Shown here: positions 5,813-17,278 of the stretch, one piece after another
How the letters are laid out: every line of letters starts with the position of its first letter
Numbering within the stretch: the first letter of the stretch is position 1
Translations under genes and position numbers: made by a program
The notes under the pieces: generated by a model
Seen by the model: only the letters and a program-made list of their open reading frames with translations
Databases searched by the model: none
What the model was told of the DNA's origin: nothing
From: a virus
Reading direction: 5' to 3' (one strand)
IMG/VR virus record: IMGVR_UViG_3300042451_001946
Location: 1-25,571 of that record
Length of the DNA: 25,571 nucleotides

Positions 5813-5823
<11 letters not shown>
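5452..5823 (+). CDS. Beta-rich phage structural protein, tail/fibre-associated
   Basis: The 123-residue protein starts with an RG-less variant of a common phage pattern: a strand and [11 protein letters not shown], then [15 protein letters not shown] at about residues 43-57, ENGRLTLGG at 69-77, and a final [28 protein letters not shown]. This layout of short strands separated by 'LTGY.ARMQVR' and 'YDLEI' segments recurs in many tailed phages beside fibre genes, where it is usually annotated as hypothetical or as a baseplate/fibre adaptor. I infer a structural role from that and from position: its end overlaps the collagen-like fibre by 11 bases. The GGAGG site 9 bases before the ATG is strong but lies in a hairpin. 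Confidence 0.6.
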
Positions 5824-9865
<4,042 letters not shown>

Positions 9866-13490: not shown

Positions 13491-13682
13491 ATGGAAATTG
13501 GTGTTGATTCCTCAGAACTGATTGATGCCCTTTCAACAAAAATTGCAAAGTTGGTAGTTGAGTTGGAAACAACGCGTCTTGCGCTAATGAAGGCTCAAAA
13601 AGCAATTGTTGAACTTGAGGGTGTCGCTGTTCGTGACGGCAGTGTTGATCCTCTTCCGTATGCGCCGGGGATTCAACGATGA
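13491..13682 (+). CDS. Small coiled-coil protein, unknown
   Basis: This 63-residue product is mostly one predicted helix (about residues 8-46, heptad-like IDALSTKIAKLVVELETTRLALMK) with a short non-helical tail. It may oligomerise; no function is recognisable. It starts 15 bases after the endolysin stop, with an AAGG about 11 bases before the ATG, and its stop overlaps the next start as ATGA. The composition changes here from A/C-rich (endolysin) to G/T-rich. Confidence 0.5.
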   Translation: MEIGVDSSELIDALSTKIAKLVVELETTRLALMKAQKAIVELEGVAVRDGSVDPLPYAPGIQR

Positions 13683-14005
13683 CTGCTGTTGATGCTGATG
13701 TGGTGTGGCATAACGACGGCCACGTCATGCTTTTGCAGTTAAATCGTTCTGAAATTCAGGCTTTGTATGTTTCGTGCCCTGAGGAGGGAGCCTGTCAACA
13801 TCCTGTTCATGGCTGCATGGTCAGGTATTTCATGTTGCGGTTTGGTCTTGAATGCAACGTTGGTGTTGCCCCACCTTCACCCGAAATGCCGATTGCTTGG
13901 AGTCTTGTAGGCGATCCGCATGATCTTGATGCGGCCCAAGTTTGGATTATTCCAACAGCGGATGAGGCGTTCGCTGCTTGGCTGATCACTCAAGATGGTG
14001 GTTAG
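13679..14005 (+). CDS. Unknown small protein, Cys-containing
   Basis: The 108-residue product has an N-terminal strand region (VVWHNDGHVMLLQLNRSEIQALYVSC), a CPEEGACQHPVHGC segment with three cysteines and two histidines that could bind a metal (about residues 33-46), and a C-terminal VWIIPTADEAFAAWLI. I do not recognise a family. The start overlaps the previous stop (ATGA). Its stop codon overlaps the stop codon of the opposite-strand gene at 14002 (TTAG read both ways), so the two transcripts converge without a terminator between them. Confidence 0.5.
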   Translation: MTAVDADVVWHNDGHVMLLQLNRSEIQALYVSCPEEGACQHPVHGCMVRYFMLRFGLECNVGVAPPSPEMPIAWSLVGDPHDLDAAQVWIIPTADEAFAAWLITQDGG

Positions 14006-15069
14006 GCGGACTTAAGGACGGGTCGGACGGCAGGGGTGAACTTACCTGCATCGGCGGCAACAAGAGTTTGAGACACCCATCGAAGCACCAGTTTGCGGTC
14101 TCCTGTGCGGGGACCAGTCCAGTACCGGTGCCAGTGAGCACGCCGCAGATGCGGAGTAACTGCCCTACCTGTGGGGTCACTGGCGGTACTGGCAGCACGA
14201 GCGTTGCGTAGTACCGCCCCCACCCGGTAGCCAAGATAATGGACATTCGGAGCGTGAGCCGGACCGACGCGACGCCCCCCCACAACGGGTTCCGGAATCT
14301 CTTCCAAATCGGGATCCGCCGCAGATATATAAAGCATGAGGTTCACGGCAAGAAAAAACAGGTCGCTCGCTGATTTCCATTCGTGCATAATTGTTTGCTC
14401 GTCAAAACAGTAGTCACGGTCGTGGAGATGCAACTTCTGCAAGTTGACGGTTGTGGCATTGGAAAGTTTTTTCCAGTGTTCTTCGCTTTCAAGTGGTAGC
14501 AACTCCCAAAACTCGCCCAATGGGACAGTGAACGTGATGGACATGGTGCGACCAGTTTCCTGTTCGTGGCCCACCGCAGTCATCCAAATACTTGGCAATA
14601 CGTTTTTTCGGGCGTCTGTGGCTTTGTGTTCGTGTACGAGAATGCCGTCAAACACCATGAGTGTTGGCGGCTGGTCAAGTTCGGGTGTCATGGCATGGAT
14701 CTGCGGCTTAGGAAATACGAAGTAGCCGATGTTGTGAGGCCGACGCAAAAAAACTTCATGGGGGGTTTCGCCATCAGGTAGTGGTGTGGCGACAAGTTCT
14801 TCACTGAGGTCGGGGTCGACGAGGTAGGTTGCTTTGCCTTGTTTTGCCCATGCGTCGATGGACTCACCGATTAGGTCGTGTTGGGACACGTTCAATTCGG
14901 TTTTGCGGTTGGTGATGCTGGCCCGGTATCGCATGAGGAAAGCGTTGGCGGTGAGCGCTGGTCCGACTTGTTGTTCCCATTTTCTTTTGGTTTTTGCTAG
15001 TACGTGTTTGGATCCCATAAGAAAAGAATAGTCCGACGTCAACAATTTGGCAAATCCGCCTGCTATCAC
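14002..15069 (-). CDS. AcrVA2-like protein (putative anti-CRISPR family)
   Basis: The 355-residue product ends with PHLRRAHWHRYWTGPR followed by a strand, LVLRW (about residues 306-331). As I recall it, AcrVA2 from Moraxella mobile elements (about 322 residues) ends in the same arrangement: PH.RR.HWH.YW, then a strand with RW. Other parts correspond in order: a hydrophobic helix then AADPDLEEIP near residue 250 (AcrVA2 has AEPDI), a YLGYRVGAVLR segment, and a VFLRRP...YFVFP region near residue 125. AcrVA2 lowers Cas12a levels by acting during Cas12a synthesis. The wider family occurs in many plasmids and phages, where targets are mostly unknown, so family membership is better supported than function. 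The start is GTG at 15069, overlapping the winged-helix gene's stop by 4 bases; ATG 15018 is an alternative. Confidence 0.6.
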   Translation of the reverse strand: MIAGGFAKLLTSDYSFLMGSKHVLAKTKRKWEQQVGPALTANAFLMRYRASITNRKTELNVSQHDLIGESIDAWAKQGKATYLVDPDLSEELVATPLPDGETPHEVFLRRPHNIGYFVFPKPQIHAMTPELDQPPTLMVFDGILVHEHKATDARKNVLPSIWMTAVGHEQETGRTMSITFTVPLGEFWELLPLESEEHWKKLSNATTVNLQKLHLHDRDYCFDEQTIMHEWKSASDLFFLAVNLMLYISAADPDLEEIPEPVVGGRRVGPAHAPNVHYLGYRVGAVLRNARAASTASDPTGRAVTPHLRRAHWHRYWTGPRTGDRKLVLRWVSQTLVAADAGKFTPAVRPVLKSA

Positions 15070-15470
15070 CCCTGCTGATCTACGGCTTTTTCCCTTAAAT
15101 AAGCGGATACTGAAGCGTATCTAACAATATCCGGATGACTGTTAACGCCTTGGGCATTAACCTCATAAGTATTACGACCATTGACTTTTGTTCTTGCTAT
15201 GACATTAGAAGCAACCAATTTACCCACCGATTTAGCGACATTCGCCTCAGTAACACCCAAAGCAACAGAAATCTCACGCAAAGTCACATGCGGATTTTCG
15301 GCAACAATAACCAAAACCCGACCAGCCGGAGTCAAGATAGCCAAAGCATCTCGCGGTGTGTAAGCGATGATTCTCTGCTCATCCAACGCCCTTAAAACTG
15401 CTTCCGCCACATCAGCCGCACCAGTAGAACCCGCCGACTCAACAGCGGCCTCCAGAGGGCGACGCAGCAC
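15066..15470 (-). CDS. Winged-helix (MarR-like) transcription regulator
   Basis: The 134-residue product holds a winged-helix DNA-binding domain at about residues 38-112: PRDALAILTPAGRVLVIVAENPHVTLREISVALGVTEANVAKSVGKLVASNVIARTKVNGRNTYEV, with a helix-turn-helix (LREISVALGVTEANVAKSVGKLVA) and a wing (RTKVNGRNTYEV). I choose GTG 15470 because AGGAGG lies 6 bases upstream; an in-frame GTG at 15518 adds 16 residues but has no ribosome site. It is the first gene of a two-gene operon, overlapping the AcrVA2-like gene by 4 bases (GTGA). Regulators next to anti-CRISPR genes (Aca proteins) often repress their own operon; that role here is inference from position. The family is also common as a general phage regulator. 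Confidence 0.65.
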   Translation of the reverse strand: MLRRPLEAAVESAGSTGAADVAEAVLRALDEQRIIAYTPRDALAILTPAGRVLVIVAENPHVTLREISVALGVTEANVAKSVGKLVASNVIARTKVNGRNTYEVNAQGVNSHPDIVRYASVSAYLREKAVDQQG

Positions 15471-15564
15471 GTGATCCCTCCTGCTGTCATGGCGTTCAAT
15501 GGCATCCTGTGAGTCCACAAAAAGCGAGTCTATACTCCCCTGAACTTGTCATGGGCCATCACCA
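15471..15564. promoter_or_regulatory. Divergent promoter/operator region
   Basis: The gap separates the leftward regulator operon from the rightward 15565 gene. TATACT (15531-15536, +) and TATAGA (15529-15534, -) overlap within GAGTCTATACTC, so both directions could share one -10 region. Neither -35 is convincing. TGTCATGG occurs at 15485-15492 and 15547-15554, flanking the boxes, and is a candidate operator for the winged-helix protein. Confidence 0.35.
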
Positions 15565-15798
15565 ATGAAGACTTCTCAAAACACTTCCGACGCTTTCCGC
15601 TACGTTTCCGGACCGCTATTCCTTGCTTTGTGCGCTGCCGGGTACAACGCCCTCGCTTTTAAGCATCGGCGTCCAACAATTAGCGACGGTGTGAGATGGG
15701 TAGCAAATCAAGGTGGTGGGGCGGAAGTGGCGGGAGCAATCATTGGTGGGCTTTTAGCCCATTGGCTTTTAAACAATGGACAGGAGAAGAACCATTGA
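15565..15798 (+). CDS. Small two-helix membrane protein, unknown
   Basis: The 77-residue product has two hydrophobic stretches (about residues 14-31, YVSGPLFLALCAAGYNAL, and 52-68, GAEVAGAIIGGLLAHWL) around a basic loop (KHRRP). I do not recognise it; holin-like, exclusion or regulatory roles are all possible. No ribosome site precedes the ATG. The only nearby signal is the TATACT box about 29 bases upstream. Its stop overlaps the TTG start of the next gene. Confidence 0.5.
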   Translation: MKTSQNTSDAFRYVSGPLFLALCAAGYNALAFKHRRPTISDGVRWVANQGGGAEVAGAIIGGLLAHWLLNNGQEKNH

Positions 15799-16049
15799 CC
15801 GATCTAAAAGACCGTCTTGCCTTACTCGAAATCGCACCGCAAAACCGACCATGCCCAGTCCAAGCACTACTTGATCAGTTGGATCCAGAAACAGCAGAAC
15901 TTTTGGACCGCCTGCTGCTGGAAAGCAGCAAATCCATCCGGTCAATTCACTCCGAACTCACATCATCCGGAATTCGCATCGCACGCGAATCCCTATCCAA
16001 CTACCGCAACGGCTTAGGTCGGTGCGCAGTCAAAAGGATAAACCAATGA
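15795..16049 (+). CDS. Small HTH-like DNA-binding protein, actinophage type
   Basis: I choose TTG 15795, which overlaps the previous stop (TTGA) and has GGAG 8 bases upstream, giving 84 residues; an upstream ATG at 15696 would overlap most of the preceding gene. The protein is all-helical: ALLDQLDPETAELLDRLL, then SKSIRSIHSELTSSGIRIARESLSNYRNGLGRCAV, the second part resembling a helix-turn-helix with a basic end. Similar small proteins with '(L)D.ED...L..AL.......I...L...G...S...V..HR.G.C' occur in actinophages near terminase and nuclease genes. The role is probably DNA-binding. It is coupled to the metallophosphoesterase by ATGA. Confidence 0.55.
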   Translation: MTDLKDRLALLEIAPQNRPCPVQALLDQLDPETAELLDRLLLESSKSIRSIHSELTSSGIRIARESLSNYRNGLGRCAVKRINQ

Positions 16050-17278
16050 GTAAGCCCCCCAAGAGCCTCACCGAACGGTTGGCTTCACTAGAAAACGCCG
16101 AAGAAATCCCTGAAGCCACACGAGACAAAACTATTCCGGCGGGCTGGGAACCCGGTGTCATCTGGGAAGGAACCCACGGAACAATCACAACGGGGGCAGT
16201 AGACAGCCTACCCGGAGAATGGGACGACCTTCTCCGGGCAAGAGGGCTGGACCCAGAAATTTACGAAGTTGTTGGAGACACCATGCGTTGGTGCTCATGG
16301 GACGGATGGAAACGCGACGAACAAGGTGAACAGGCAGTAAGCACAATCCAGTACTCGTTCAAAGCGGAAATCCGTAAAAAGTGTGCCCCTCTAGCCATCC
16401 CAGAAGAGTGCTATCAGGCAGTCCGCAAGGCTAAAAGTGGCAAGAAGCCAAAGCCCACCGGAGACGCCACTTTTGTCGTTGCTTTGTCAGACTGGCAAGC
16501 AGGAAACTGTGACGGTGGCGGAATCGAAGCCCAAGCCGAAGCCGCAGCACAACTAGTTGAATCTATCCCACAAAGGCTTGCGGACCTACGGCGCAGCGGC
16601 AACAACATCGGAACCGTCTGCATCGCAGGACTAGGGGACCTCGTCGAAAACTGCTCAGGATTCTACCCATCACAACAATTCAGAGTCGAACTAGACAGAC
16701 GAGACCAAGTCAAATTCGTACGCAGAGCAGTACGAGACATCTTCATGGCCGTCGCCCCCCACGCCAACCAAATCGTAGGTGTAGCAGTACCCGGAAACCA
16801 CGGCGAAAACCGGCAAAACGGCAAATCGTTCACATCGCCACACGACAACGACGACGTCGCAACATTCGAACAAGTAGCCGAAATCCTTGCAGCCAACAAA
16901 GACGCCTACGGGCACATCGGATGGCGACTCACCAGAGACGAAATCGCTGTCAGCATGAACCTATCCGGACAAAACGTCGCATTCACACACGGCCACGTCC
17001 CCCGACCCAAAGGCAACGCCGCCGAAACCCTATGGGGATGGTGGGAAAAGCAAACAATGGGTCGCAAATACGCAGGAGTAGCAGACTCAAACATCCTGCT
17101 CGCAGGCCACTACCACCACCTCAACGTCAAAGAACAACTAGGGCGCACCGTATTCATCGCCCCAAGCCTCACCCAAGTCTCCGAATACTACGGAGACCAA
17201 ACAGGGGTACTCACACGATACGGAACACTCAGCATGGTCCTCAACCATGACGGGTGGGGAGAAATGACCCTCCTATAA
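16046..17278 (+). CDS. Calcineurin-like metallophosphoesterase
   Basis: The 410-residue protein carries the metal-binding motifs of the calcineurin-like phosphoesterase superfamily in order: SDWQAG (about residue 147; DWQ in place of the usual DxH), GLGDLVEN (about 196), PGNHGEN (about 249), FTHGH (about 312) and LAGHYHHL (about 352). The superfamily includes SbcD/Mre11 nucleases and phosphodiesterases; phages use such enzymes in DNA metabolism or in defence against host nucleotide signals, and the sequence does not decide which. The N-terminal ~130 residues contain WEPGVIWEG and MRWCSWDGWKRD, seen in phage members of this group. I choose ATG 16046 (overlapping the previous stop, AAAGGA upstream) over GTG 16022. 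The coding strand is strongly A/C-rich. Confidence 0.8.
   Translation: MSKPPKSLTERLASLENAEEIPEATRDKTIPAGWEPGVIWEGTHGTITTGAVDSLPGEWDDLLRARGLDPEIYEVVGDTMRWCSWDGWKRDEQGEQAVSTIQYSFKAEIRKKCAPLAIPEECYQAVRKAKSGKKPKPTGDATFVVALSDWQAGNCDGGGIEAQAEAAAQLVESIPQRLADLRRSGNNIGTVCIAGLGDLVENCSGFYPSQQFRVELDRRDQVKFVRRAVRDIFMAVAPHANQIVGVAVPGNHGENRQNGKSFTSPHDNDDVATFEQVAEILAANKDAYGHIGWRLTRDEIAVSMNLSGQNVAFTHGHVPRPKGNAAETLWGWWEKQTMGRKYAGVADSNILLAGHYHHLNVKEQLGRTVFIAPSLTQVSEYYGDQTGVLTRYGTLSMVLNHDGWGEMTLL

Follow-up and report, generated by a model that had tools for sequence, protein, structure and literature searches.

A gene in the viral DNA analysed here (25,571 bases of an IMG/VR virus record, termed the window) was found to encode a protein of the AcrVA2/FinQ family, though a divergent one, and the sequence evidence is decisive for this homology. 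The explanation that we favour, with modest confidence, is that the protein is phage-borne cargo of this family which would silence the mRNA of one particular protein during its translation, the target probably being something other than Cas12a.

The window virus most likely infects an actinobacterium, because the nearest relatives of its exonuclease and primase genes are found in Streptomyces, Mycobacterium, Arthrobacter and Gordonia phages and because one of its genes codes for a WhiB protein (PF02467, E 4.4e-14). The host was resolved to no finer level, which, along with the fragmentary nature of the 25.6-kb record, counts against the favoured explanation. Elsewhere in the window, positions 5813-9865 hold a 1350-codon collagen-like gene with GPQGxTG repeats, probably a tail fibre gene, in repeat-rich DNA.

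The AcrVA2-like gene lies on the minus strand in a slot bordered on the left by a conserved, convergent 108-aa gene (13679..14005, plus strand) and on the right by a divergent gene for a membrane-like protein of 77 aa (15565..15798, plus strand). Upstream of it on the same strand is a gene for a 150-aa MarR-like winged-helix protein (15066..15518, recognised by Pfam MarR_2/HTH_24 and by its homologues), and the MarR-like character proposed in an initial annotation of this DNA was borne out by the MarR_2 match (E 4.7e-6). The same annotation had correctly placed the winged-helix ORF and a 355-codon ORF (14002-15069) on the minus strand, opposite to the flanking genes, and had correctly read PHLRRAHWHRYW...LVLRW and AADPDLEE in the latter.

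The limits of both genes were revised by comparison with two near relatives, L001 and L002, which carry the same gene pair and are 99.98% identical to each other over their overlap. The AcrVA2-like gene of L001 and L002 aligns from codon 18 of the 355-codon ORF onward, in L001 the position corresponding to GTG 15069 falls in another frame, and the DNA similarity between the window and L001 rises from about 64% to more than 92% at ATG 15018. A leaderless-type -10 box, TATTCT (15025..15030, minus strand), stands 6 nt ahead of this ATG, and a hexamer resembling a -35 element, TTGCCA (15048-15053, minus strand), lies 17 nt above the box; L001 has TAGGCT at the same position, exactly 6 nt before the ATG. 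Given the out-of-frame GTG in L001 and the box 6 nt before the ATG, the product is most likely a protein of 338 aa starting at codon 18 (14002..15018, minus strand; supported by profile, phmmer and phrog_6160 matches, the last with E=2.5e-19) instead of the 355 residues first assumed. The 4-base overlap of the two genes is present as a GTGA shared by the ORFs, but its biological use is unlikely, the true spacing probably being 47 bp.

The start of the winged-helix gene was likewise moved from 15470 to 15518, because the 16 residues at its N-terminus, which include RHDxRRDH, are conserved in L001. The box TAGACT (15527..15532, minus strand) precedes its GTG by 8 nt, and similar -10 boxes precede the winged-helix homologues in L176, L179 and L181; as background, TANNNT at a spacing of 5-9 nt occurs at 2% of positions. 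A -10 box directly before the start codon is a mark of leaderless transcripts, which are common in actinobacteria, and we infer leaderless starts for both window genes. Because such a box precedes its ATG, the AcrVA2-like gene probably has a separate leaderless promoter within the 47-bp spacer, and it is possibly also transcribed by read-through from the winged-helix gene.

The initial annotation had noted a C-terminal resemblance to AcrVA2. This resemblance proved real, far beyond chance and full-length: in a phmmer search of the PDB with the single sequence, AcrVA2 (7CI1) was the sole match (E 1.9e-5), and the profile comparison proposed at that time, run with 27 relatives from which AcrVA2, its Moraxella kin and FinQ were left out, matched AcrVA2 significantly (E=3.3e-40, profile positions 19-321 against residues 9-319 of the chain). 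A profile match with E=3.1e-63 had been discarded in favour of this independent one, since its alignment included AcrVA2. The protein carries the conserved W, P, P and G and the C-terminal HxRRxHWH...W...G...W that form invariant columns of the family alignment; W57, H290, R292, H295 and H297 are invariant among 88 family members, the last four lying in the motif HLRRAHWH (residues 290-297; 14128..14151, minus strand). Our guess is that the HxRxxHxH residues constitute a catalytic or metal site. No Pfam or NCBIfam family covers the protein, and PADLOC returned nothing for it. Among its homologues, an AcrVA2-like protein of Erwinia phage RisingSun (128815-129138) is labelled 'putative mycothiosynthase', probably a misannotation.

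Structure prediction, also proposed initially as a check, gave a divided answer. The AlphaFold2 model of the window protein (pLDDT 77, pTM 0.79) and a control model of AcrVA2 (pLDDT 88) have the same order of helices and strands, but Foldseek did not match the window model to 7CI1 or 7CI2 in the PDB, whereas the control model was matched with E 7e-52. We attribute the missing match to the quality of the model and do not take it as a refutation, while still listing it against the favoured explanation. A search of BFVD with the window model returned 11 viral proteins at E<=1e-3 (best 6e-15), phage members of the family among them, the matches to family members having TM scores of 0.31-0.55.

The homology to AcrVA2 could be taken to mean that the protein is a true anti-CRISPR against the Cas12a (type V-A) of its actinobacterial host, as in Moraxella phages. 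We consider this highly improbable. When carrier genomes were searched for type V systems, Cas12a was detected in one of the 50 bacterial genomes carrying a family member, that of Moraxella lacunata, and was absent from the actinobacterial carriers (L107, L109, L134, L137, L154 and L160), making Cas12a an unlikely target of the window protein and bearing out the earlier remark that the family is much wider than Cas12a. Furthermore, a FastTree phylogeny placed the window protein with Nocardia and other actinobacterial members and, more deeply, with members from Deinococcota, away from AcrVA2, with moderate local support for the grouping (0.75-0.91).

FinQ is a long-known protein by which plasmids block their rivals; it was sequenced in 1989, and to our knowledge its mechanism is still unclear. 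In a search of plasmids, matches were obtained in Moraxella, Nocardia, Streptomyces, Thermus and others, together with hundreds of enterobacterial plasmids in which the matching gene is annotated finQ; FinQ of IncI1 plasmids accounts for 524 matching plasmid records. FinQ of pE36_2 is 27% identical to AcrVA2 over 286 residues (pairwise E 2e-18; the AcrVA2 sequence used, L091, was identified by its model, which matches 7CI2 at 99% identity), and one FinQ from the E. coli IncI group matches the same sequence with E 5e-14. The window protein itself matches FinQ with a pairwise E=5e-11 and tblastn E values of 6e-5 to 5e-4. Judged from these sequence comparisons, the plasmid fertility inhibitor FinQ is a member of the AcrVA2 family, a point beyond the initial annotation. 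No joint mention of AcrVA2 and FinQ was found in the literature searched, which did not extend to the original AcrVA2 preprint, and earlier notice is possible. Two further features of finQ loci were observed: the finQ of pJIE113 (L221, 2501-3586) is annotated as a 259-codon CDS although its homology reaches about 361 aa, a possible start misannotation or truncation, and a DUF2913-type gene lies immediately upstream of enterobacterial FinQ-like genes in L012, L016 and L139 (three of 94 upstream neighbours).

The genomic setting was examined in related phages, with the conserved exonuclease/metallophosphoesterase gene (16022..17278, plus strand; phrog_284, E=4.8e-50) as the anchor by which L176-L183, L185 and L187 were found. 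Homologues of the winged-helix gene, 38-67% identical, occupy the same place in L175-L183, L185 and L187, and the left-border gene is conserved in L175-L181, L183, L185 and L187. In the ten contigs L176-L183, L185 and L187, which represent seven distinct phages, the winged-helix gene is kept between the same neighbours and the AcrVA2-like gene is absent. Their slots contain a gene for a protein of 179 aa that includes the stretch WEIKTK (L176), small genes with mutual similarity, the larger being 44% identical (L179 and L181), a LuxR-type HTH (L185), genes on the opposite strand that read as methyltransferase-like (L183 and L187), or little (L178). Since the winged-helix gene persists in these relatives, whose slots hold different cargo or none, it belongs to the core genes of this phage group; the AcrVA2-like gene is variable cargo.

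Several occupants of the slot merit description. The 179-aa gene of L176 (1810-2349, minus strand), whose WEIKTK resembles a PD-(D/E)XK nuclease, is a candidate anti-defence or defence gene, and its product had no match in Pfam, PHROG or PADLOC. The two-gene cargo of L179 (3331-4250) and L181 (2249-3073), both on the minus strand, includes a larger gene whose product begins NRPCF and has CxDCDG, possibly zinc-binding. A small cysteine-rich gene (MGxLTGxLxVGW...) is conserved at the left edge of the slot in L001 (about 6015-6450), L176 (1275-1541) and L178 (3752-3982) and is absent from the window.

The initial annotation had suggested that the gene pair may be an anti-CRISPR or wider anti-defence operon; in a dedicated regulator-acr operon of this kind the winged-helix protein would repress the AcrVA2-like gene as an Aca does. 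The two genes are indeed neighbours on one strand in L001 and L002 as well as in the window, but the dedicated operon was left unsupported and appears improbable to us: since the winged-helix gene is kept in the ten related contigs lacking the AcrVA2-like gene, it is not a dedicated Aca partner, the cargo gene seems to have a promoter to itself, and neither the window nor L001 showed an inverted repeat, at a minimum arm length of 6, upstream of the winged-helix gene. A search for an operator upstream of this gene across nine phage loci likewise yielded no shared inverted repeat. In the wider family, MarR_2 occurs in two of the 94 genes upstream of members, and members are not regularly accompanied by any regulator family, the only recurrent upstream partners being DUF2913 and ParB_N (three of 94 each). 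The regulator may control the cargo after all.

Comparison of the AcrVA2-like gene with that of L001 revealed a mosaic. Codons 1-239 (14302..15018, minus strand), which encode the N-terminal and middle regions and are poorly conserved across the family, differ from L001 at 2 of 717 bases; codons 240-338 (14002..14301, minus strand), encoding the C-terminal region, within which the best-conserved part of the family lies, differ at 48 of 300 bases, stop included. A test for mosaicism with the cut at base 735 gave p about 1e-22, a value that is only approximate because neighbouring sites are not independent. The stretch that is nearly identical in DNA (window 14302-15018, L001 5001-5717) is flanked on both sides by more diverged sequence (roughly 60-97% identical). 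Since silent differences are nearly absent from it, the front of the gene was exchanged recently, within the gene, and selection is not the cause. The breakpoint falls after a long helix (residues 207-232) and ahead of the conserved C-terminal region, so that the mosaic fits, without proving, a protein in which the recognition part can be swapped and the effector part stays constant. Codons 1-239 would be the recognition part; this division derives from conservation only and is counted against the favoured explanation. That two phages have exchanged the front of the gene in nature gives a hint as to where specificity resides.

AcrVA2 is reported to recognise the nascent LSKT peptide of Cas12a and thereby to trigger degradation of the mRNA, described as the first documented prokaryotic mRNA decay triggered by a nascent peptide in defence (PMC13131331). 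By analogy with its homologues, the window protein may recognise, probably by means of its variable N-terminal and middle region, the start of one particular nascent protein at the ribosome, and the conserved C-terminal region with HxRRxHWH would then cause loss of the mRNA of that protein. FinQ is reported to block F transfer and, independently of Rho, to end transcripts of the F tra genes at several sites; the effect described is transcription termination and not mRNA decay, which counts against the favoured explanation (PMC8744291). The target might be another defence protein of the host, or it might be a gene belonging to a rival phage or plasmid, in the way that F tra genes are the target of FinQ.

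These two targets represent two forms of silencing during translation. Inhibition of another host defence protein (another CRISPR effector, restriction or abortive infection) by the same nascent-chain mechanism would suit a gene located in the variable slot where these phages carry cargo and a family common on phages and conjugative plasmids; Cas1, however, was present in 24 of 50 carrier genomes, a count that has no matched baseline and gives no strong signal of enrichment, and we rate this form as less likely than not. A weapon between mobile elements, which would silence a gene in a rival phage or plasmid, is suggested by the presence in the family of FinQ with its block of F transfer, but FinQ acts between plasmids and no competitor is known in the present case, and we rate this form as slightly less likely still.

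Because FinQ belongs alongside AcrVA2, the targets silenced by the family are probably many and diverse, and not one CRISPR enzyme. Its members are found in actinophages and jumbo phages as well as conjugative plasmids, with hosts that mostly lack Cas12a, which suggests a general, retargetable silencing tool. We tentatively propose, with less than even confidence, that AcrVA2 and FinQ represent one large, unrecognised family of proteins from mobile elements, which recognise the nascent product of a chosen gene and silence that gene by destroying or halting its transcript, an exchangeable front module picking the target and the HxRRxHWH tail being the effector, with the window protein as an actinophage member directed at a target other than Cas12a. 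FinQ also offers a genetically easy E. coli system in which the nascent-peptide mechanism can be tested.

Compared with known systems, the locus resembles those of Aca regulators in having a small HTH gene next to an acr-like gene; the window gene differs in being a MarR-like winged-helix gene that lies upstream, is core to its phage group and occurs without the acr-like gene. ORF43 of Shewanella phage vB_SbaS_Y11, a putative AcrVA2, belongs to the same family as the window protein, as do unnamed homologues in Erwinia, Dickeya, Klebsiella and Lactobacillus phages, mostly annotated as hypothetical, which come from other hosts and genome contexts and are about 19-27% identical to the window protein where aligned. 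FinQ is homologous to it most clearly over the last 120-150 residues, and both are borne by mobile elements; FinQ differs in adjoining plasmid transfer genes (trbA and trbB in pJIE113) and in having a known effect on F tra transcripts. AcrVA2 comes from Moraxella bovoculi (PDB 7CI1, 7CI2) and the window protein from an actinophage, and their overall identity of 17-18% counts against the favoured explanation; the two nevertheless share size, homology over the full length, the predicted order of elements and the invariant W, P, P, G, HxRRxHWH, W and G residues.
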